Part shown: in pieces, positions 6,207-16,641 of the stretch
Layout: each line of letters starts with the position of its first letter
How positions within the stretch are numbered: position 1 is the stretch's first letter
Origin: Lysinibacillus sp. FSL W8-0992
Lineage (GTDB): Bacteria; Bacillota; Bacilli; Bacillales_A; Planococcaceae
Length of the DNA stretch: 64,000 nt
Reading direction: 5' to 3'
Assembly (NCBI RefSeq): GCF_038008685.1
Contig: NZ_JBBOZQ010000001.1
Span: 2,170,001 to 2,234,000 of the forward strand
Translations under genes and position numbers: made by a program
Notes under the pieces: model-generated
The model's input: only the letters and a program-made list of their open reading frames with translations
What the model was told of the DNA's origin: nothing
Database searches by the model: none

Positions 6207-6701
6207 ATGAAGGATAAGAAGGAACGATTGAAAGAATTGCTTGCTCAGCAAAAGCAAAAAATAATAGAAGAGGAGGAAAAAAGAGCTTATAAAATCGTTT
6301 TAGAGGAAGTAAATGATTTGTTTTCGAATATGAGTGTTGAAGAGGAAGTAGCCATTTTATCAAAAGAAGATTCTAAAAAAATCACCGATGATTTATTTGA
6401 AGCATTTCCATTTGGTCACTCGGGAATTGACTGGACACTTATGTTTTCTAAAACTATTTTTTCTAACTTTGTTGATTATGAAAGCGCGCTAGTGGAATTA
6501 GTAATGAAAAATCATAAAGTACATGATGAAATTTGTTATATCATTGATCTGAATGCTCAACATGTTATTAAAACAAAATTGTTTAACATTATTTATAGAG
6601 TCGAAGAAGTGAGGTGTTGGGATAAATATATTTATGCACCTCAAATTAAATTGGTTATTGAATTCCCTTCGAATGATATTGCGGTAGGATGGAAGGAATA
6701 A
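6207..6701 (+). CDS. Hydrophilic protein of unknown function
   Basis: The gene encodes 164 residues from an ATG preceded by TAGGGCG. Residues 1-35 are a highly charged, probably coiled-coil helix (KKERLKELLAQQKQKIIEEEEKR); the rest is a mixed globular domain ending IEFPSNDIAVGWKE. It has no signal peptide or membrane helix. The context (several lone small unknown genes, each with its own terminator) looks accessory. An immunity-like or regulatory role is possible, but nothing in the sequence proves it. Confidence 0.6.
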   Translation: MKDKKERLKELLAQQKQKIIEEEEKRAYKIVLEEVNDLFSNMSVEEEVAILSKEDSKKITDDLFEAFPFGHSGIDWTLMFSKTIFSNFVDYESALVELVMKNHKVHDEICYIIDLNAQHVIKTKLFNIIYRVEEVRCWDKYIYAPQIKLVIEFPSNDIAVGWKE

Positions 6702-6930: not shown

Positions 6931-7098
6931 TTAACAATCGTCTCCAGAACTTATGAAAGTAGCGCCGACAATAATTAAAAGAATAAATAGTACAACGATT
7001 AGCACGAATGTTGAACCGTTATTGTTATTACCATAATCATAGTTATTTACTCCACAACAATTATTGTTCCAATTGCCTGCATTTCCGTAGTATCCCAT
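6931..7098 (-). CDS. YjcZ-family sporulation small protein
   Basis: The 55-codon gene begins MGYYGNAGNWNNNCCGVNNY and ends in one membrane helix (TFVLIVVLFILLIIVGATF). This is the YjcZ-family pattern: a Gly/Tyr/Asn-rich head and a conserved FVLIVVLFILLIIVGA helix. Such peptides are known from spore-forming Bacillaceae, are often transcribed in sporulation, and probably sit in a forespore or spore membrane. A perfect AAGGAGGGA ribosome binding site lies 7 bases upstream (7106-7113). Two adjacent Cys in the head are unusual for the family. Confidence 0.88.
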   Translation of the reverse strand: MGYYGNAGNWNNNCCGVNNYDYGNNNNGSTFVLIVVLFILLIIVGATFISSGDDC

Positions 7099-7185
7099 GG
7101 AAAAATCCCTCCTTTCTTCAATGTATAATATGTATTCTGCAAAGAAGTGGGGGGGTGTTTATCCATTAAAAATTTAAACTAGTAA

Positions 7186-7295
7186 TATTTTGTGGGAGAT
7201 GATAAAAGAGGTGTCGACGAAAATGCTACCCTATATATGAAATTTGTAAGCCATCTTCAGCAAGTTTCATAAGGAGCCTTTAGTTTTTGAAATAG
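7186..7295 (+). pseudogene. Scrambled upstream part of a decayed gene
   Basis: Short coding-like pieces appear in different frames here (MKFVSHLQQVS near 7238-7270; HKEPLVFEIATTL near 7268-7306) and seem to lead into the frame at 7296-7427. Joining them needs at least two frameshifts, so this is tentative. Confidence 0.3.
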
Positions 7296-7427
7296 CGACC
7301 ACTTTATAAACATTTAGGTAAGTTTTCCATAGTAAATAGCCTAAAACACTACGATAAAGATTTAGTAGAATATCAGCAATATCAAAACTACTTAAAAAAA
7401 GATTTAATTGAAGTCCCTCTATACTAA
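7296..7427 (+). pseudogene. C-terminal remnant of a decayed gene
   Basis: A 43-codon open frame without a start codon reads RPLYKHLGKFSIVNSLKHYD... and ends ...DLIEVPLY at a TAA. The composition looks like real protein. Upstream pieces in other frames suggest two frameshifts. A transposase C-terminus is one possibility, but I cannot identify the parent. Confidence 0.4.
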
Positions 7428-7445
7428 GTATCCCTTAATAATGGA

Positions 7446-7480
7446 AAATCGCCGATAAAACCGTTTCAATCGCCGATAAG
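7446..7480. repeat. Short direct repeat ATCGCCGATA
   Basis: AATCGCCGATAA occurs at 7446-7457 and again at 7469-7480, followed by AGGCG. It is a small intergenic repeat next to the palindromic element and may be a remnant of a repeat array. Confidence 0.5.
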
Positions 7481-7515
7481 GCGCTATGAATGTGTCTTGC
7501 GGAGAATGCTGATAT

Positions 7516-7626
7516 AAAAAAAATCCACTCGCTTTCCGCGGGCACAACGTAAGCCGCAACCCTCGCTATGCGCGGTGTTAAGTCTTACGCTACGTGCGTT
7601 CCCGCAGGAGTAAGCGTGGATTTTTA
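7516..7626. repeat. Large imperfect palindromic intergenic element
   Basis: AAAAAATCCACTCGCTTTCC on the left is mirrored by AGTAAGCGTGGATTTTT on the right (about 7516-7540 and 7608-7626), with a GC-rich middle that is far above the local base composition. It resembles repetitive palindromic units found between genes in Bacillales and may also end transcription of the minus-strand ATPase gene. It has no coding capacity. Confidence 0.65.
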
Positions 7627-7673
7627 CTTAAAGACAGAAAATTCAAAATCGTTTGGGTGACTGGCACTTTTCG

Positions 7674-9410
7674 TTACATCGCTACCCAGTGATCTTTAGA
7701 AACTTCCACAAGTTGTGTGTTGTCTAAATTAAAACGATTGATCATCAACTCTTCTTCTGACATGACCTGACGTTTCTTTTGTTTTTCAATTGCCGGGTCT
7801 GGTATTGGAATTGATTGTAGTAACATTTTTGTATAGGGATGCTGTGGGTTCGCATAGAGTTCTTCGCTTTCCGCTAATTCCACAATTTTTCCTCCGTACA
7901 TCACGGCTACGCGATCACTAATATGCTTCACCATCGACAAATCATGTGCGATAAATAAATAAGTCAAACCTAGTCGTTGTTGTAATTCTTTCAATAAGTC
8001 TACAACTTGTTTTTGAATCGAAACATCTAGGGCAGAGAGTGGTTCATCACATACAATAAAATTCGGCTCCACTGCTAAAGCACGGGCAATACCAATACGT
8101 TGACGTTGCCCGCCGCTAAATTCATGTGGATAGCGTAAAGCATGCTCCTTTTTTAAGCCTACTAGTTCGAGTAATTCCTCAATACGTGCGCGACGTTCCT
8201 CAGCTGATTTCGCCAATTTATGTACATCAAGTGCCTCCCCGATAATATCAAGAACCTTCTTACGAGGATTTAATGATGAGTATGGATCCTGGAAAATGAT
8301 TTGCATGTGTCGTCGCATACTTTTTAATTCACCTTTAGATAAGCGTGTGACAGGAACCCCTTTATACAATACTTCGCCATCTGTTGGCTCATGGAGCTGT
8401 AAAATCGTACGTCCTGTTGTCGATTTACCTGAACCAGATTCGCCTACGAGCCCGAGTGTCTCACCGGGATAAATACGGAATGACAAATCATCTACTGCTT
8501 TTAATAGTTCACCTTTTTTTAAATCGAAATGCTTAGATAAATTCCGTACTTCAATTAGCGGTACGTTCAAATCGGTACCTTCTTCGATATTAGGAGGCTG
8601 TTTTGGTTCTTTCTTTTCGTGAAGCTTCGGCAGTGCATTTAATAGTTTCTTCGTATAAGGATGTTGCGGATTAGCAAATATCTCTTCCGTAGTTCCTTCC
8701 TCAACAATTTCTCCCTCTTTCATGACAATGACACGATCGCACATACCTGCAACAACACCTAAATCATGCGTAATTAAAATGATTGATGTTCCTAGACGTT
8801 CTTGCATTTGCTTCATAATGCTTAAAATCTGTGCTTGAATTGTGACATCTAGCGCAGTTGTTGGTTCGTCTGCAATCAACAGGGAAGGGTTACATGCAAG
8901 GGCCATCGTAATCATGACACGTTGACGCATACCACCACTAAATTCATGTGGGTACTGCTGATAACGTTCTTCACTATTTTTAATGCCAACTAATTTTAAT
9001 AATTCAATCGTTTTTTCGTATGCTTGCTTTTTGGACATTTTTTGATGCTTCATTAAACCTTCAGCAATTTGCTCACCAACACGAATGGTTGGGTTAGTAG
9101 AAGTCATCGGGTCTTGGAAAATCATACTGATGTCTTTACCCCGGATGGCTTCCATTTGTTTTTCCGATTGTGTCACTAAATTTTCCCCTTGGAAAAGGAT
9201 TGTACCTGACTTTAAAAAAGAGGGCGGTGATGGGAGAAGACGCATAATGGAACGAGCGGTTACACTTTTCCCGCTACCAGATTCTCCAACAATGCCGACT
9301 GTTTCTCCTTTATTGACATAAAAGTTAACACCTTTTACTGCTTCAAATTCGCTTTCACCTGTAATAAAAGAAACGCGTAAATCTTGTATTTCAAGAATTT
9401 TTTCACTCAT
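7674..9410 (-). CDS. Fused two-domain peptide ABC transporter ATPase (DppD-DppF type)
   Basis: The 578-residue protein holds two complete ABC ATPase domains. Domain 1 (about 5-265) has Walker A GESGSGKS, signature FSGGMRQR and Walker [13 protein letters not shown]. Domain 2 (about 285-545) has [17 protein letters not shown] and [12 protein letters not shown]. Each is followed by the oligopeptide-type C-terminal part ([24 protein letters not shown]) typical of Dpp/Opp ATPases. In most Bacilli these are two genes; here they are one chain, which would supply both nucleotide-binding sites. The gene is divergent from the two permeases and binding protein, which must be its partners. The ribosome binding site is AAAGGATG. 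Confidence 0.93.
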
Positions 9411-9542
9411 CGAATGCTCATCCTTTAATAAATTTCAAATATTCTTATTGACGAACTGTAGTCGTTCATACATACTATACTATACAGGTAGGTATTGTAC
9501 AATATAGAGTGTAATGTAAATTTTATCATTTTATTTTCATAC

Positions 9543-9559
9543 CTTACTACTATAGTAAG
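9543..9559. promoter_or_regulatory. Perfect palindrome in the transporter control region
   Basis: CTTACTA-CTA-TAGTAAG is a perfect 7-3-7 inverted repeat 20 bp upstream of the permease start, in the divergent control region. It is possibly an operator; the protein is unknown. Confidence 0.4.
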
Positions 9560-9578
9560 CGAAGAAAGGAGGAAATAC

Positions 9579-11009
9579 ATGAACAATTTTCAGAATATTA
9601 GAAAGCTTAATGAAAGTTATTACTTTAAGCAAATTTTTAATGAAATGACGAGGAAAACTAGTTATTCTATTGTGTTATTTTTACTAGGATTTCCAGTGCA
9701 TATTGTTACATATTTTTTATATTTGTTAAAAAAAGATAAACATTCATATGCTCAAATGTTTGCACAAACGAAAGAAAGATTTATTTCGCAAGGGAAAATT
9801 CAAGCATGGGAAGCGGAATATAGGCAGCAGGAACAAACGAAGGCAGCATTTTTTAATAAATCGCTGAATGAACAGCAACTTGCATCAGTAGTTAATCAAC
9901 TAACGGAACAAAAGCTTAATAGAGAAGTAGAAAAAATACTACTAAACGAAGGTATTGCAAAACAATCCTACAAAAAGTATTTTAGTGAACTACTCGAAAA
10001 TCCGATTTTTTTAGCTGTGTCATTTATTCCGGGTATTTTAATGTATTGTTTCCTAATTCTATGCAGTAATGCGTTTAGTCGATTTATCGTTGAGCGCTTA
10101 TTCCAAAGTGCATTTGTCATTGTTGGTGTGGCGACATTAGTATTTACTATTTTATATTTATCGCCATTTGATCCTGCACGTAATTTGTTAGGAATCGAGG
10201 CAACACCTGAACAAGTCGCAAATTTTAATAAAATTCATGGATTAGATCAGCCATATTTAGTGCAGCTCTGGCATTCCTTATCTGGACTATTTACATTTGA
10301 CTTAGGAAATTCCTTTGAAGGTAAAGAAAACATTACGCAAAGTATTATGAATAAGTTTCCAGTAACATTGGAAATTGCGCTATTTTCATTATTGATGGCG
10401 GTGGCGATTGCCATTCCTGTTGGGATAATTTCAGCGGTCCGACCGAATTCGTTTGCAGATTATGCGTTTATGTTTATCGCACTTATTGGTTTATCAATTC
10501 CGAGCTTCTGGCAAGGACTCATTTTTATTTTAACGTTTTCATTAAAATTACAATGGTTCCCTGCTACGTATAATCCGAATAATTGGTTATCCATTGTCAT
10601 GCCGGTTGTTGTATTAGGTACTTCTATTACAGCGTCGATTGCACGAATGACAAGATCGAGCATGCTTGAGGTAATTCATGAGGACTATATTATTACGGCA
10701 AAAGCGAAAGGATTGAGTGAGCGCAAAGTCATTACAAAGCATGCGATTCGCAATGCGATGATTCCGATCGTTACCGTAATTGGTCTTTTATTTGGTGGTA
10801 TGCTTGGCGGTGCTTCTGTTACTGAAAAAGTATTTAATATTAGTGGAATCGGAAGTTATATAGTAGATAAGCAATTCATTCCGGATATTCCTGCCATCCT
10901 CGGTGGGGTTGTTTATATTGCCATTACAATTTCAATTGTCAATATGGTGATTGATGTGCTATATGCGTTCTTTGATCCACGCATTCGTTCAAAAATGAAG
11001 AAATCTTAG
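9579..11009 (+). CDS. Peptide ABC transporter permease, DppB/OppB type with extra N-terminal part
   Basis: The gene encodes 476 residues from the ATG at 9579 (AAAGGAGG at 9566-9573); an upstream in-frame start at 9495 lacks a ribosome binding site. The last 310 residues are an ordinary DppB permease: FQSAFVIVGVATLVFTILYLSPFDPARNLLG, the inner-membrane domain, and the EAA loop AKAKGLSERKVITKHAIRNAMIPI. In front lie about 160 extra residues with a membrane helix (SYSIVLFLLGFPVHIVTYFL), a charged cytoplasmic stretch (KERFISQGKIQAWEAEYRQQ) and another helix. Normal DppB starts directly with its first helix. It is followed 13 bp later by the second permease. Confidence 0.9.
   Translation: MNNFQNIRKLNESYYFKQIFNEMTRKTSYSIVLFLLGFPVHIVTYFLYLLKKDKHSYAQMFAQTKERFISQGKIQAWEAEYRQQEQTKAAFFNKSLNEQQLASVVNQLTEQKLNREVEKILLNEGIAKQSYKKYFSELLENPIFLAVSFIPGILMYCFLILCSNAFSRFIVERLFQSAFVIVGVATLVFTILYLSPFDPARNLLGIEATPEQVANFNKIHGLDQPYLVQLWHSLSGLFTFDLGNSFEGKENITQSIMNKFPVTLEIALFSLLMAVAIAIPVGIISAVRPNSFADYAFMFIALIGLSIPSFWQGLIFILTFSLKLQWFPATYNPNNWLSIVMPVVVLGTSITASIARMTRSSMLEVIHEDYIITAKAKGLSERKVITKHAIRNAMIPIVTVIGLLFGGMLGGASVTEKVFNISGIGSYIVDKQFIPDIPAILGGVVYIAITISIVNMVIDVLYAFFDPRIRSKMKKS
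9585..9599 (+). promoter_or_regulatory. CodY-box-like sequence at the permease start
   Basis: AATTTTCAGAATATT differs from the CodY consensus AATTTTCWGAAAATT at one of 15 positions. CodY represses many peptide transporters in Gram-positive bacteria when branched-chain amino acids and GTP are plentiful, so control here is plausible, although the box lies inside codons 3-7. Confidence 0.4.
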
Positions 11010-11022
11010 GAGAGGGTATATT

Positions 11023-12519
11023 GTGAAATTCATATCGAATGTAAAACTGCTTATGAAAATAACGCAAGAATATGTCAATGCACAGTTTACCATTGCCTTT
11101 TCTGCTATTTTTTCAGTGCTGTTTTTACTAAATAGTTTTGATTTTGTAAATGGCGTATGGCGACCTTATGTCCTTACGATATTTGTTATTTATGCCTGTA
11201 CGACATTATATATATGGTTTACATCTTTTCAAATAAAAAAGGATTTAGCAAAAGAACGCGAAATTCAAACACGTACACGACTGCTTGGTTATCCATTAAT
11301 GCTAACAGTCTTAGTGGGTAATGTATTTGCAGCAGGCTTCGGATTTATGCTGGCAACGAAAAATAAAACTGCAGAATATACTTTTGCTATCTATGCATTT
11401 ATTACTCAGATTTTTATTATTCTTATTTCGGCATTGAATCTATTTAAGCCTTATGTGGTGGATACATTTTTATTAGCAATGGGAGCATTTTTAGTACTTG
11501 CGGTCTTTTATGCGGTGATGGCTGTACTTGTAGCTCGATACGTTACAGTAAGCGATGCCCCTAAATGGATGATACCGCTTGGAGTAGTATTGCTTTTACC
11601 TGCGCTAACAGGAAATCTTTTTTCATTCCTACTTGGCTGGACATTAATTAAAAAAGCCCGCAATACGGATCCATCTGCCGTTGAAAAGTGGCAGAAAATA
11701 TGGAATAAAATATTGCGTAATACGATGGCTGTATTCGGTATGTTCTTTATTATATTTATGTTCTCGCTATCGGTCGTTAGTTCATGGACATTTGATTACG
11801 ATTTTGCAGTGCAAAATAATTATAGTGCGTTATTACAAACACCTTCTTTGGATTATCCACTAGGGACTGATAACTTTGGTAGAGATTTATTTTCAAGAAT
11901 CGTGTTTGGAGCTCAAATCTCTTTAATTGTTGGCTTCTTTTCAACTATTATCCCAGCTGCAATAGGAGGAGCACTTGGCGCATTTTCAGGCTATTATGGA
12001 AAAAATACAGATAACATCATAATGCGTCTACTTGATATTTTATATGCTATCCCAGGTATCTTACTGGCAATTGCAATCATTGCGGCATTTGGTGCAAACA
12101 CAGTGAATTTAATTATTGCATTGAGCGTAGGGGCAATCCCGACATACGCAAGAACGATGCGTGCTAATGTCATGCAAATTGCCAATTTTGAATTTGTTGA
12201 ATCAGCAAGGGCACTTGGTGTGTCTGATGCTGCCATTATTTTTAAGCATATCGTACCGAACTCTCTCGCTCCGATGATAGTGAAAGCGACTTTAACAATT
12301 GGTGGAGCAGTTATTTCAACAAGTAGTTTAAGCTTTCTTGGACTTGGAATTGAGCCACATATACCGGAGTGGGGCAATATTTTAAAAGTAGGCAGTACGT
12401 ATTTAGAAACAAATTCTTATGTAGCTATTTTCCCAGGTTTATGCATAATGCTACTCGTCTTATCGTTTAACTTTTTCGGTGATGGGTTACGTGATGCACT
12501 TGATCCGAAAACAAACTAA
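11023..12519 (+). CDS. Peptide ABC transporter permease, DppC/OppC type with extra membrane domain
   Basis: The gene encodes 498 residues from a GTG at 11023 after AGGAGAGGG. The C-terminal 260 residues are a normal DppC: LGTDNFGRDLFSRIVFGAQISL, the EAA loop ARALGVSDAAIIFKHIVPNSLAPMIV, and the end FNFFGDGLRDALDPK. The first 240 residues are an added region with about six hydrophobic helices joined by short charged loops. I do not recognise this region from standard DppC proteins. Both permeases of this system carry such additions, which points to a distinct transporter subfamily. The next gene starts 25 bp downstream. Confidence 0.9.
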   Translation: MKFISNVKLLMKITQEYVNAQFTIAFSAIFSVLFLLNSFDFVNGVWRPYVLTIFVIYACTTLYIWFTSFQIKKDLAKEREIQTRTRLLGYPLMLTVLVGNVFAAGFGFMLATKNKTAEYTFAIYAFITQIFIILISALNLFKPYVVDTFLLAMGAFLVLAVFYAVMAVLVARYVTVSDAPKWMIPLGVVLLLPALTGNLFSFLLGWTLIKKARNTDPSAVEKWQKIWNKILRNTMAVFGMFFIIFMFSLSVVSSWTFDYDFAVQNNYSALLQTPSLDYPLGTDNFGRDLFSRIVFGAQISLIVGFFSTIIPAAIGGALGAFSGYYGKNTDNIIMRLLDILYAIPGILLAIAIIAAFGANTVNLIIALSVGAIPTYARTMRANVMQIANFEFVESARALGVSDAAIIFKHIVPNSLAPMIVKATLTIGGAVISTSSLSFLGLGIEPHIPEWGNILKVGSTYLETNSYVAIFPGLCIMLLVLSFNFFGDGLRDALDPKTN

Positions 12520-12544
12520 AATTATTTATTGGAGGAATACAGAG

Positions 12545-14356
12545 ATGAACAAAAAATTATTTACACTTGCTGCATCAGCAACCGTTGCGGCGGTCGCTTT
12601 AGCAGGGTGTGTAGAAACTAAATCGAATGTTGAAAATAAAGGTGATAAGTCAGATACAGCGAGTACAAAACCTGTTATTGAAGTGCTAGGTATGGCAGCT
12701 CAAGAACAAGATATGAATATTGTGCGCGACCAATTAGTGAAAAATGGCTTTGATGTAAAATTAAATATTCAACCAGACTTCGGTTCATATTCAGCACAAA
12801 AAGATGCGGGTAACTATGATGTCGCAATTTCTAGCTGGACGACTGTAACAGGAAATCCAGACTACGCAGTACGTGGGTTATTTAAAACTGGTGGAGATTA
12901 TAGTGTGACTGCAGATGCTACAGTCGATAAATTAATTGATGAAGCTAGTACATTAACTGGCGATGATACCAAAGAGAAATATAAAGAGCTTGAGCAAGCA
13001 TTAGTATTTGATAATGCTTATATTGCACCTTTATACATTTCTCAAAAATTCCAAGGTATTTATTCGAAAAAAGTAAACCCAGATACTGTACGTTTACCAA
13101 AATCTCGTGCTCAAGCATGGGAATCAATTGCATTTAATGATACTGCTAAAAATGCGACAGACACATTAGTGTTGCATCAATCAATTGGCTCATTAACTTC
13201 TTTAGACCCGATTAAAGGAAATGACGGTTCAATTAATACATTAAATACGAATATGTATGTTCGATTAGTGAATTTATCAGATACTGATGAAGTAGTATCT
13301 GACGGCTCATTATCTTATAATCACGCTATTTCTGAAAATAACCAAGAGTACTATTTCGTATTACGTGATGATATTAATTTTGCTAAAGTGGAAAATGGCA
13401 AAGCAGTGGATACTGGCGATTTAGTATCAGCTGAAGATGTTGTATTCTCATTAGAACGTGCGAAAGATCAAAATTCAGTACCAGACCACCGCACATATTC
13501 TATTCATGAAAATATTGATTCCGTAGAGGTAGTTTCAGATATTACTTCACTTGAATCTGTGAAAACAGCTGATGGAAAGTCAGTTTTAGATGAACTATCA
13601 GATAAACTACCAGCAGCTATTGCTCAAGTCGTAACGGACGAAGCGAAAGTAGACAATGCAGCAGGTAAATATCAAGTAGTGAAAATTATAACACCAAATC
13701 CATTCCCACAAGTGCTGAATTATTTAGCTCACCAATCGGGGGGGATTGTGTCTGAAGCGGCGGTTAAAGCGGTTAATACGTTTGACGTAGCAAGCTATGA
13801 TCCAAATGTAAATGTTGCATACGGTGACCAAGCTACTGTTACAGAAGGTGCAACTTATGCAAACCATTTAGCGGCTTCTGGACCTTACATTTTAGTGCAA
13901 AAAAATGATTACGAAGCAACATTTGTCAAAAACCCTGCATACCAAGTTGGTACTGACAACGAGCCGAAAATTAATAACATAAGTGTTCGTTTCATTGAAG
14001 ATAATGATAGTGCGCTATCTGCACTTCGTAATGGTGAAATTGATGTATTACAATCAGTACCAGAAACTAAAATTGATGTAGTAAAAGGCGATGCTAACTT
14101 AACATTAAAAACAGCTGATAGTAATGCTGTCTCTTATTTACTCGTTAATCCAAAAGGTCGCGAAGTATCGAAATCGGTAGACTTACGTAAAGCAATCCTT
14201 TACTCTATTAACCAAGATGAATTTATTAGCTACTACCAAGGCAATAAAAAGCCAGCAGTATCAACAGTTTCTCCACTTGTTGACACAGGCTTAAAGCTAA
14301 CAGCAGATAGCTCAAAAGTAAAAGAATTTTTAAGTGCTTATAAAGCTAGTAAATAA
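12545..14356 (+). CDS. Peptide-binding lipoprotein of SBP_bac_5 type, apparently circularly permuted
   Basis: The 603-residue protein starts at the ATG at 12545 (GGAGG at 12531-12535). It has a lipoprotein signal with lipobox LAGC (Cys22). After a linker, residues 43-200 look like the end of a SBP_bac_5 protein (QLVKNGFDVKLNIQPDF, NYDVAISSW, TVDKLIDEASTL, EKYKELEQALVFDNAYIAPL). Residue 203 onward looks like the beginning of one (LVLHQSIGSLTSLDPIKGN, SAEDVVFSLERAKD), and the chain stops soon after DLRKAILYSINQDEF, in the middle of the usual family order. No frameshift is seen. It should capture peptides or similar solutes for the two upstream permeases. Confidence 0.88.
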   Translation: MNKKLFTLAASATVAAVALAGCVETKSNVENKGDKSDTASTKPVIEVLGMAAQEQDMNIVRDQLVKNGFDVKLNIQPDFGSYSAQKDAGNYDVAISSWTTVTGNPDYAVRGLFKTGGDYSVTADATVDKLIDEASTLTGDDTKEKYKELEQALVFDNAYIAPLYISQKFQGIYSKKVNPDTVRLPKSRAQAWESIAFNDTAKNATDTLVLHQSIGSLTSLDPIKGNDGSINTLNTNMYVRLVNLSDTDEVVSDGSLSYNHAISENNQEYYFVLRDDINFAKVENGKAVDTGDLVSAEDVVFSLERAKDQNSVPDHRTYSIHENIDSVEVVSDITSLESVKTADGKSVLDELSDKLPAAIAQVVTDEAKVDNAAGKYQVVKIITPNPFPQVLNYLAHQSGGIVSEAAVKAVNTFDVASYDPNVNVAYGDQATVTEGATYANHLAASGPYILVQKNDYEATFVKNPAYQVGTDNEPKINNISVRFIEDNDSALSALRNGEIDVLQSVPETKIDVVKGDANLTLKTADSNAVSYLLVNPKGREVSKSVDLRKAILYSINQDEFISYYQGNKKPAVSTVSPLVDTGLKLTADSSKVKEFLSAYKASK

Positions 14357-14377
14357 AGTGTCAGACACATGAATTGA

Positions 14378-14421
14378 AGTGCTTCAAATCCTAATCTAAG
14401 GGTTTGAAGTGCTTTTTTTTG
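14378..14421 (+). terminator. Terminator of the transporter operon
   Basis: CTTCAAATCC pairs with GGGTTTGAAG, extended by wobble pairs, and is followed by eight T. Short palindromes AGTGTCAGACAC (14357-14369) and AGTGCCAGGCACT (14422-14434) flank it. Confidence 0.8.
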
Positions 14422-14505
14422 AGTGCCAGGCACTTTTTGTTTAAATTTGGAACTTAAACCAAGTTTAGTCGTATATAAAGTAAAAGAATAAAAGGAGAGT
14501 TGTAT

Positions 14506-14844
14506 ATGCGAAAGAAAAATTACATCATTTTAATTGTAACATTGGTTGTGGAAGCGATTATTACGTACTTTATTGCATCATTTTTCTCCGTTAGATTTAT
14601 CGAAATAATGTTCTTTATTGGCTTTGCAATTGCTGGCGGTATTTTTTACTTTTCGAGTAGTGGTGGTCCAATAGCTAGATTCAATGAAGTGGCAGTGACT
14701 GCTCAAACAGGTCTCATTCTTAAAAGCGAGCAATATATCGCAAAGAAAGGACCGATATTTTTTGCTTCCGTACTATTTTGTTTAATTGGACTAGTTTTCT
14801 TTCTTCTTCTAATTGCAGGCATAATTCCACCTAAAGAAATTTAA
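14506..14844 (+). CDS. Small membrane protein with three helices, function unknown
   Basis: The gene encodes 112 residues from the ATG at 14506; AAAGGAG (14490-14496) fits, and a TTG two codons earlier is the alternative. Three hydrophobic segments are clear: IILIVTLVVEAIITYFIASFF, IEIMFFIGFAIAGGIFYF and FASVLFCLIGLVFFLLLIAG. A polar loop (SSSGGPIARFNEVAVTAQTG) lies between the second and third. It has no catalytic motif and no recognised family. It stands alone between terminator-like hairpins. Confidence 0.65.
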   Translation: MRKKNYIILIVTLVVEAIITYFIASFFSVRFIEIMFFIGFAIAGGIFYFSSSGGPIARFNEVAVTAQTGLILKSEQYIAKKGPIFFASVLFCLIGLVFFLLLIAGIIPPKEI

Positions 14845-14856
14845 ATAATGTTGTTT

Positions 14857-14940
14857 AGAGGAGAGCATACGGCTGACGCAGCTCTCTGCAAATTAAAAAG
14901 CCCTTCTAGTCTTTCAAGGATTGGAGGGGCTTGTTGTTGT
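14857..14940 (+). terminator. Two hairpins after the small membrane protein gene
   Basis: GAGAGC/GCTCTC (14861-14884) is followed by AAGCCCTTC/GGAGGGGCTT (14898-14931). The second is followed by TGTTGTTG, a weak T tract, so termination strength is uncertain. Confidence 0.5.
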
Positions 14941-15052
14941 TTACGAGAACAAGTATAGGTAAAAAGTCTCGCAGCATTATTAAATCAACGTAACGAATAG
15001 ATTGCATAATACTTGGAAAGTACTTTATGTAAAAAAGTTGGAGTTGATTTGT

Positions 15053-15253
15053 TTGGAATTTATTAAAGATAAAGAGCTTTACTGCTATAGCTGTCGTAAA
15101 AAGACGCTCTTTACATGTAAAGACGGGCATCATAAAAGTGGTGTAGAAAGTCATTGCAGTGAATGCAGTGGCATTTGGTTTGAATGGCAAAATCGAGCAG
15201 TTGAAAGAGAAATGGAGAAATGGGTTGAATATAACCAAAGAATCGTAAATTAA
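15053..15253 (+). CDS. Small zinc-ribbon-like protein
   Basis: The gene encodes 66 residues from a TTG at 15053, 9 bases after GGAG (15040-15043); a longer frame from 15002 is open but has no ribosome binding site. Two CxxC pairs and a further Cys (CYSCRKKTLFTC, SHCSECSGIW) suggest a zinc-binding knuckle. The C-terminus is charged and helical (QNRAVEREMEKWVEYNQR). I do not recognise the family; small zinc ribbons of this kind may bind nucleic acid or proteins. Confidence 0.55.
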   Translation: MEFIKDKELYCYSCRKKTLFTCKDGHHKSGVESHCSECSGIWFEWQNRAVEREMEKWVEYNQRIVN

Positions 15254-15322
15254 TACAAGCGCTTCACAATTTATGTTATTCTACCTTGTAAATTATTATA
15301 TTAAAAGAAAGATTTTACCTTA

Positions 15323-15340
15323 AATTATTGCGATAATTTG
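15323..15340. repeat. Small palindrome AAATTAT-TGCG-ATAATTT
   Basis: A perfect 7-bp-arm inverted repeat lies in the 200-bp gap before the ketosynthase gene. The gap also has TATAAT at about 15425-15430. It may be an operator; there is no further support. Confidence 0.3.
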
Positions 15341-15462
15341 CTTAAAAGTGATACAAATTATCCAAATAGGTCACTTACTTAGAACTTAAGGCTTCCGAAT
15401 ATAGACTATGTCCGATTTAGTTGTATATAATGGAATAAAGTTAAAGTGTGAAGGTGATATAT

Positions 15463-16641
15463 TTGGACGACATAGTCATAACAGGATATGGCATTAAAGC
15501 TCCTGGAATTTTAGATAAATTTAGCTTTTTAAATGTATTAGAAAAAGGTATTTGTACTCAGGGCATTTTAAACTATGCTCAACAGCCTCACACTAATATC
15601 GTAGCGGGTTTGATTGAAGATAGCTTCTTGGAGATAAACGGGGTAAGTTATCATCGCCATCCGCGTTCTGTAAGAATGGCAATTGCCGCTGCATTGGATG
15701 CATCTGAAATGTCAAATTTAAATGATTTTAAACCACATCGAATTGCAGTAATTATGGGGACATCCGCAGGAGCCATTCTTGAAATCGAAAAATACGCTTC
15801 GGATGCTTTTGATTTAAGGAAGTTTCCGATTCATGGGGTTTCCCTTGTTGATACGCACACACTTTCAAGCTCTGTTGCCGAAGCAATCGGTTCGTGTGGT
15901 TCTGCCTTTACAGTAACAACAGGCTGCAGTGCTAGTTTAGACGCTATATTAATAGGGAAACAGCTATTGGAGTCTGGAAGTGTTGATGCTTGTATTGTAG
16001 GAGGAACAGAGGCTCCATTAGGCCAATGGACAATTAATGGCTTTAAAAAAATAAGGTCACTTTCTACGGAGATTTCAATCGAAAAAGCTGGTGTACCGTT
16101 TTCAACTCAGCATCGCGGCTTCGTGTTATCCGAGGGAGCTGGTGTAATGGTTTTAGAGCGTAGGCAATCAGCAATTACAAGAGGACAGAAGATATATGGA
16201 AAAGTTGAACGTGTTGTTTCAAGAAATGAAGGACAAAAACTATTAACCTCTGATATTACTGGTAGACATATGCTGGACGTTTTTCAAGAAACAGTCGGAG
16301 ATACTATACCAAGCTATATAAACAGTCAGGCGTTAGGTATTGAGGTAAATGATCAGATAGAACGCTTTACTCTGAAAGAAACATTTGGCTCTAAAGTGCC
16401 TATTACTTCAATTAAAGGAATGATAGGTCACACATTTGGTGCAATGGGTGCGATGCAAATTATTGCATCTTTATTATCAATGGAATATGGGTTTATACCT
16501 CCAACGATTAAAACATCAGGTCATGGGTTTGAAGACATACCTATTGTTTATGAAACTAGACATCAAGCGGTAGAGTCTGTATGTATTACTACTCATGGGA
16601 GTAGCGGGAATAATGCTTGTCTATTACTGACACATACATAG
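15463..16641 (+). CDS. Beta-ketoacyl-ACP synthase-like protein lacking one catalytic His
   Basis: The gene encodes 392 residues from a TTG at 15463 after AAGGTG (15451-15456). It has the thiolase fold of FabF/KAS II enzymes: the nucleophile elbow TTGCSAS with Cys155, VGGTEAP, the AGVPFSTQHRGFVLSEGAG stretch (usually PFDxxRDGFVxGEGAG), and KGMIGHTFGAMGA with His323. The other catalytic His (NAHGTxT in KAS II) is replaced: the aligned stretch reads INSQALGIEVND, with Gln289 at the His position. Condensation with malonyl-ACP should be impaired, so it may act on other acyl groups or as a partner subunit. No ACP or fatty-acid gene is nearby. It lies 12 bp before the GGDEF-EAL gene. Confidence 0.85.
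   Translation: MDDIVITGYGIKAPGILDKFSFLNVLEKGICTQGILNYAQQPHTNIVAGLIEDSFLEINGVSYHRHPRSVRMAIAAALDASEMSNLNDFKPHRIAVIMGTSAGAILEIEKYASDAFDLRKFPIHGVSLVDTHTLSSSVAEAIGSCGSAFTVTTGCSASLDAILIGKQLLESGSVDACIVGGTEAPLGQWTINGFKKIRSLSTEISIEKAGVPFSTQHRGFVLSEGAGVMVLERRQSAITRGQKIYGKVERVVSRNEGQKLLTSDITGRHMLDVFQETVGDTIPSYINSQALGIEVNDQIERFTLKETFGSKVPITSIKGMIGHTFGAMGAMQIIASLLSMEYGFIPPTIKTSGHGFEDIPIVYETRHQAVESVCITTHGSSGNNACLLLTHT

Follow-up and report, generated by a model that had tools for sequence, protein, structure and literature searches.

A naturally circularly permuted solute-binding lipoprotein of the SBP_bac_5 family in Bacilli

Analysis of a 64,000-nucleotide stretch of the genome of Lysinibacillus sp. FSL W8-0992 (contig NZ_JBBOZQ010000001.1, positions 2,170,001 to 2,234,000; hereafter, the window) shows that it encodes a solute-binding protein (SBP) whose chain is naturally permuted relative to other SBP_bac_5 (cluster C) proteins. 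In this lipoprotein, the part of the chain that normally ends the protein precedes the part that normally begins it, so that the chain order is rotated in comparison with DppA, OppA and GsiB, with the new ends lying inside lobe II and the old ends fused (Table 1). The preliminary description of this DNA was correct on the open reading frame (ORF) and its motifs: the gene starts with ATG at 12545, a few bases downstream of a GGAGG sequence, and terminates with the stop codon at 14354-14356. The lipobox, LAGC, occupies residues 19-22 of the window SBP, and its Cys is retained in 39 of the 41 rows of the family alignment (A2).

Table 1. Features of the permuted SBP gene and its operon, in window coordinates
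Feature	Coordinates	Strand	Basis or remark
Permuted SBP_bac_5 lipoprotein gene, putatively GisD-like, 603 aa	12545..14356	+	Sequence, profiles, model
Lipoprotein signal peptide through the lipobox Cys, residues 1-22	12545..12610	+	Sequence
Residues 43-180, equivalent to the second half of lobe II and the old C-terminus (C-terminal third in the canonical SBP_bac_5 order)	12671..13084	+	Profiles, fragment alignment, PDB matches, model
Linker joining the old C- and N-termini, residues 178-208	13076..13168	+	Alignment A2
Residues 203-603, equivalent to lobe I followed by the first half of lobe II (N-terminal two thirds in the canonical SBP_bac_5 order)	13151..14353	+	
Terminator-like stem-loop and T run, 3' of the SBP gene	14376..14415	+	Consensus scan
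Permease C, GisC/DppC-like	11023..12519	+	N-terminal extension of ~210-220 residues with ~6 extra hydrophobic segments
Permease B, GisB/DppB-like	9579..11009	+	N-terminal extension of ~165 residues in which a charged stretch separates 2 extra hydrophobic segments
Fused double ABC ATPase, GisA-like, divergent	7674..9410	-	

Evidence for the rotated chain order

A Pfam-A search with the window SBP yielded a single family, SBP_bac_5 (PF00496), which matched in two stretches (140.9 bits against a cut-off of 32.4). Profile positions 11-253 matched the C-terminal part of the protein (genome positions 2183325-2184287, 115.1 bits), and positions 290-366 matched the N-terminal part (2182668-2182898, 31.8 bits, on its own just below the cut-off of 32.4); because the latter precedes the former in the window SBP, the order of the profile is inverted. 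All 11 other SBP_bac_5 proteins of the same genome gave a single colinear match to PF00496, and all 41 family members in alignment A2 matched it at E 1e-3, with no other Pfam family detected. A phmmer search of the PDB found the same inversion relative to the solved protein 5u4o, with window residues 58-163 matching its residues 380-489 (23.4 bits) and window residues 430-562 matching its residues 186-315 (12.8 bits, weak when taken alone).

The rotation was then quantified with a canonical profile constructed from the 11 canonical SBP_bac_5 proteins of the window's genome. In the natural order, the window SBP matched this profile as two inverted domains, with positions 385-519 falling on residues 49-179 and positions 41-344 on residues 200-579. 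With the two parts exchanged (residues 203-603 followed by 43-200), the check that the preliminary description had proposed gave a single domain spanning profile positions 57-519, with 134.7 bits the top-scoring single domain among the versions compared; scored separately, the front and rear parts obtained 36.8 and 97.5 bits, respectively. Eight control rotations had full scores of 116.2-139.3 bits, and seven of these split into two domains; the remaining one, cut at residue 150, gave one shorter domain (profile positions 41-484, 127.3 bits).

In the reverse test, a rotated profile of the 41 family members outscored the natural one, by best single domain, on 52 of 57 canonical ORFs, the other five showing no higher score with the rotated profile. 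No canonical ORF among the 57 produced one domain of more than 400 profile positions with either profile; the family contains segments within residues 333-435 that lack a canonical counterpart (at least 70% of the canonical rows have nothing equivalent to 333-376, 408-423 and 428-435 of the window SBP). Each of the 57 canonical ORFs, which came from the fetched loci and include at least five repeats of one gene, was colinear with the canonical profile.

Alignment of fragments led to the same picture. For this analysis, 14 of the 57 canonical ORFs were excluded by name and the rest filtered at 80% identity, which left 37; these were split at the predicted break, trimmed at the fragment ends and aligned with the permuted proteins by MAFFT. 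All 37 N-terminal fragments were placed beyond residue 202 and all 37 C-terminal fragments mainly on residues 43-202. Among solved structures, the best stretches all ran in canonical order, both in 45 PDB sequences retrieved with the family profile and in nine retrieved with a more distant member of the family (L069, discussed below), so that these sets contain no solved permuted member.

In many canonical proteins, the sequence at the break reads ...YDPEKAKELLAEAG and continues into YPDGF, whereas the permuted proteins end in ...ADSxKVKEFLxAYxxxK and begin, behind the signal peptide and a linker, with the next strand. As had been proposed before, the new ends precede the second half of lobe II; they fall in the loop between the canonical helix DPEKAKxLLxEAG and the following strand. 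The segment that joins the old ends (residues 178-208) is 31 residues long in all 41 rows of A2.

Structure prediction is consistent with this arrangement: the window SBP is confidently predicted to fold still into one compact structure (predicted local distance difference test score [pLDDT], 91.1; predicted template modeling score [pTM], 0.88), and model residues ~198-603 match the fold of a solved cluster C SBP in a sequential structure alignment. The input alignment for this model (A4) combined 40 permuted rows with fragments of the 37 canonical proteins; one permuted protein (L087) was omitted, its ORF beginning behind an early stop.

Some observations weigh against the permutation. The confident model relied on canonical fragments as alignment rows, an earlier model whose alignment was limited to 22 permuted rows scored poorly (pLDDT 49.5), and the sequential aligner placed only the residues from ~198 on, leaving the front part unplaced, so that the comparison with a solved structure did not take in lobe II of the model as a whole. 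Of the structural check suggested at the outset, a confident prediction of one compact structure was obtained, and the structural match covers the rear part. Furthermore, the control rotation cut at residue 400 reached a full score of 139.3 bits versus 138.4 bits for the swapped order, although in two domains. The unplaced front part, together with a best Pfam stretch spanning only residues 261-580, is also what would be expected if residues 43-200 were an unrelated extra domain preceding a truncated SBP_bac_5 protein, a very improbable reading already refuted by the match of the front alone to the C-terminal third of the canonical profile, by its alignment to residues ~354-507 of solved SBPs of usual length, and by the placement of the canonical C-terminal fragments. 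The proposed circular permutation and its new ends stand on sequence profiles, fragment placement and a confident model.

Distribution, conservation and descent

Several families of Bacilli share the rotation as a fixed feature. The order is conserved among the relatives: 27 of 27 relatives in genome contigs are colinear with the window SBP over nearly the whole protein at 62-93% identity, and represent Solibacillus, Metasolibacillus, Lysinibacillus, Ureibacillus, Tetzosporium, Chryseomicrobium and Paenibacillus, as well as a record named Bacillus ndiopicus. Counting the window's own genome throughout, matches were found in 108 of 261 genomes of the order at E 1e-30 (107 full length), in 35 of 398 genomes of the class at E 1e-20 (34 full length), and in 4 of 398 genomes of the phylum, all four in the window's class. 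In the family of genome G291, 12 of 108 genomes matched, at 40-51% identity. A Metabacillus plasmid carries a complete set of four genes, for the SBP, two permeases and an ATPase, at 58-74% identity.

The gene is under purifying selection, with ratios of nonsynonymous to synonymous substitution rates (dN/dS) of 0.026-0.057 for three distinct pairs (L036 gave the same numbers as L024) and of 0.022-0.090 for either half alone; in one of these comparisons (L006), dS is 1.69, near saturation. That the gene is a strain-specific chimera in decay, or an artefact of assembly or recombination, has nothing in its favor in the window itself, decayed copies occurring only elsewhere, and this most improbable of the alternatives is already refuted by conservation, given dN/dS values of 0.03-0.06 and full-length colinear homologs both in 107 of 261 genomes of the order and in named assemblies from several genera. 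The decayed copies comprise a C-terminal piece beside an ATPase fragment (L072, genome G583), a 75-residue remnant (L086, G179), and the full-length copy with an in-frame TAA stop (L087, G165). Another genome (G173) contains two complete permuted-SBP operons (L084 and L085), whose SBPs are 64% and 61% identical to that of the window.

In a tree of 77 rows, a single long-stemmed clade with a support of 0.956 unites the permuted SBPs, which therefore most likely arose once. A search with the rotated protein recovered canonical relatives at only 25-30% identity. The canonical proteins nearest in the tree are L143, followed by L158, and their best NCBIfam models, those for a nickel SBP and DppA, respectively, both below cut-off, weigh against the reading as a Gis-like importer; GsiB was the best model, again below cut-off, for L141 and L142, the top matches when the rotated protein was used as query, and for two other near relatives. 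These mixed assignments point to an ancestry in the direction of the GsiB/DppA/NikA group, without singling out GsiB.

Operon organization and extended permeases

The permuted SBP is encoded together with two permeases and an ATP-binding cassette (ABC) ATPase, and this four-gene set is present in 44 of the 47 loci scanned, the other three (L072, L086 and L088) consisting of remnants or of sequence adjacent to a remnant. A fused, divergently encoded ATPase occurs in 43 of the 44 complete loci; in the remaining one (L074, genome G615), two separate ATPase genes lie on the same strand as the other genes of the operon.

The permuted SBP is tied to permeases with N-terminal extensions. Among the matches listed for permease B in 396 genomes of the class (drawn separately from the 398 used for the SBP), 34 genomes encode an N-extended permease B, and these are the same 34 that encode a full-length permuted SBP; no non-permuted precursor, which was sought through the N-extended permease B in these genomes, was found among the matches listed. 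The extensions of the two window permeases (9579-10071 and 11023-11682) have no Pfam match; neither they nor the GisD-like character of the SBP, treated below, figured in the preliminary description. A simple hydropathy scan showed two extra hydrophobic segments in permease B, separated by a charged stretch of ~90 residues, and six in permease C.

Apart from other ABC ATPases and ORFs antisense to the four genes, none of the neighboring ORFs of ten loci was common to more than 2 of the 22 loci compared. In one locus (L080, genome G187), a canonical peptide-transport set (SBP, two permeases and ATPases) lies ~1.5 kb from the permuted-SBP operon. A consensus scan of window positions 9300-14550 found seven terminator-like sites compared with 3.2 expected. 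Farther downstream of the SBP gene, the palindrome AGTGCCAGGCACT at 14422-14434 is followed by a T run; the pattern AGTGCCWGGCACT occurs at 65 places in the window's genome and its reversed control at 0. An Rfam scan of 7000-15500 gave no match at the gathering threshold.

Relation to the Gis importer and candidate ligand

A clue to function came from the locus of the distant family member L069 (family f9), in which a gamma-glutamyltransferase gene (TIGR00066, 506.2 bits against a cut-off of 357.85) follows the SBP gene. Compared with a named Staphylococcus aureus record, its ATPase is 78% identical, and both permeases and the first 224 SBP residues are 82% identical; from this similarity, we infer that family f9 is Staphylococcaceae. 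The four window proteins are 42-49% identical to those of L069 (SBP, 42%; permease C from residue 113 on only). In the main text of the S. aureus Gis study, GisABCD-Ggt is described as an ATPase gene divergent from permease, permease, SBP and ggt genes, with nine predicted membrane regions each in GisB and GisC and with mutants that grow poorly on reduced glutathione (GSH) or glutathione disulfide (GSSG) as the sulfur source (PMC10355420). The L069 locus has this same layout, which suggests that the permuted family is GisD-like and, through the L069-like genes of the S. aureus record, that it would contain GisD itself. In a survey restricted to Ggt-bearing genomes, the same study found the whole Gis system in S. 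aureus and its close relatives alone, whereas a few bacilli, B. subtilis among them, had it nearly complete (PMC10355420); homologous transporters can now be placed in several further families of Bacilli. A linear S. aureus record labeled as a plasmid (L186, NZ_CP077929.1) contains the ATPase, permease and SBP start twice, in inverted arms that meet near locus position 6625; one arm is more diverged and interrupted, and the arrangement may be a fold-back artefact of chromosomal sequence.

The window SBP is likely the permuted SBP of a Gis-like importer. As to its ligand, homology to S. aureus GisABCD slightly favors glutathione or its disulfide, or a small gamma-glutamyl or thiol peptide. Against this assignment stand the window's genome, which has no gamma-glutamyltransferase match (PF01019, E 0.001), operon included, and the occurrence of a ggt homolog in only 2 of the 22 loci compared (L069 and one other); at 42% SBP identity, the assignment may therefore not carry over. 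Considerable weight must be given to the possibility that the same permuted protein binds something other than glutathione, such as a metal chelate or an ordinary di- or oligopeptide. The missing Ggt match, the lack of any further widely shared neighboring gene, and the NCBIfam matches of the SBP, divided among models for SapA, nickel, glutathione and oligopeptides and each far below cut-off, are in keeping with such a ligand, but the Gis architecture common to the window and the ggt-bearing L069 is not, nor are the NCBIfam results for the other components, in which GsiD ranks best for permease C, GsiC second for permease B, and GsiA second for the ATPase, all below their cut-offs.

The binding site offers a further indication. 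At the position that we take to correspond to D436 of DppA, the Asp that binds the peptide amine, Val is present in 40 of 40 permuted rows, compared with Asp in 12 of the 28 canonical rows that have a letter there; the loop that we take to carry the equivalent of R383 is short in the eight permuted rows displayed. According to the DppA study, the lobes close on the ligand and dock on the permeases, and R383 and D436 contact a periplasmic scoop that DppB inserts into the cleft (PMC12136057). Because of the Val and the short loop, a DppA-like dipeptide pocket is unlikely in the permuted family, which argues against an ordinary dipeptide and would fit a different ligand, such as glutathione.

Comparison with known systems

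The window SBP shares with the SBP_bac_5 (cluster C) proteins DppA, OppA and GsiB the family profile, the lipobox, the adjoining Opp/Dpp-type permeases and ATPase, and the fold of residues ~198-603. With the GisABCD-Ggt system, as outlined in the main text of its description, the window operon shares the divergent ATPase, the lipoprotein SBP and two permeases with more membrane regions than usual, and differs from it in that neither the operon nor the genome has a ggt match; the permutation is nowhere mentioned in that main text (PMC10355420). Compared with GsiABCD of Escherichia coli, the model of the fused ATPase GsiA matches the window ATPase over residues 3-577, whereas the permease models match only behind the N-terminal extensions. 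The E. coli structure 1uqw, of YliB, which from the gene names in the Gis study (PMC10355420) we take to be GsiB, has the canonical order, unlike the window SBP.

Natural permutants of SBPs are already known. TpMglB-2 (Tp0684) of Treponema pallidum is a permuted sugar-binding SBP that its authors named 'Type Ic / Cluster Bc'; it shares with the window SBP the natural circular permutation of a membrane-tethered SBP, and has homologs in Gram-positive bacteria (PMC4990184). TpMglB-2 is a cluster B protein whose permutation affects the N lobe and which has a fourth hinge crossing (PMC4990184), in contrast to the cluster C window SBP, permuted in lobe II. For SBP_bac_5, in agreement with the earlier statement that no described example in this family was known, no permuted member was found in open-licence PMC papers, preprints lying outside the scope of the search.

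Origin and implications

The rotation probably arose a single time in an ancestral lineage of these Bacilli, through either tandem duplication with trimming or gene fission followed by fusion in the other order. The former, suggested in the preliminary description, is a plausible route, against which it counts that no duplication intermediate was found in the fetched sequences. Fission and fusion appears somewhat unlikely; the new ends in a helix-strand loop and the linker of constant length are compatible with either route, and neither a split nor a tandem intermediate is present among the fetched sequences, so that the data favor neither.

The window SBP would work as a Venus flytrap for a small gamma-glutamyl or thiol peptide that is passed to the permease pair. 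In canonical lipoproteins of this family, the chain generally runs from the lipid anchor into lobe I. In the permuted protein, the anchor and a linker of ~20-25 residues would instead lead into lobe II, with the old ends in lobe I closed by the fixed-length linker. We tentatively propose that these proteins, S. aureus GisD included, may constitute a new topological class of cluster C SBPs, in which the anchor has moved from lobe I to lobe II and is locked in combination with the extra permease segments; if so, the tethered SBP would be presented and docked differently from that of DppABCDF.

Among the families linked to transporters, SBP_bac_5 is one of the large ones and has been described with one chain order; an S. 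aureus importer that has been studied genetically very probably has its SBP in the permuted family. Because the rotation is fixed in many Bacilli, profile tools return two partial matches and homology searches underrate the family. The one-to-one link with extended permeases in the sampled genomes provides a natural experiment on whether the position of the SBP anchor matters for docking, and whether the extended permeases answer to an anchor in lobe II is a testable point.
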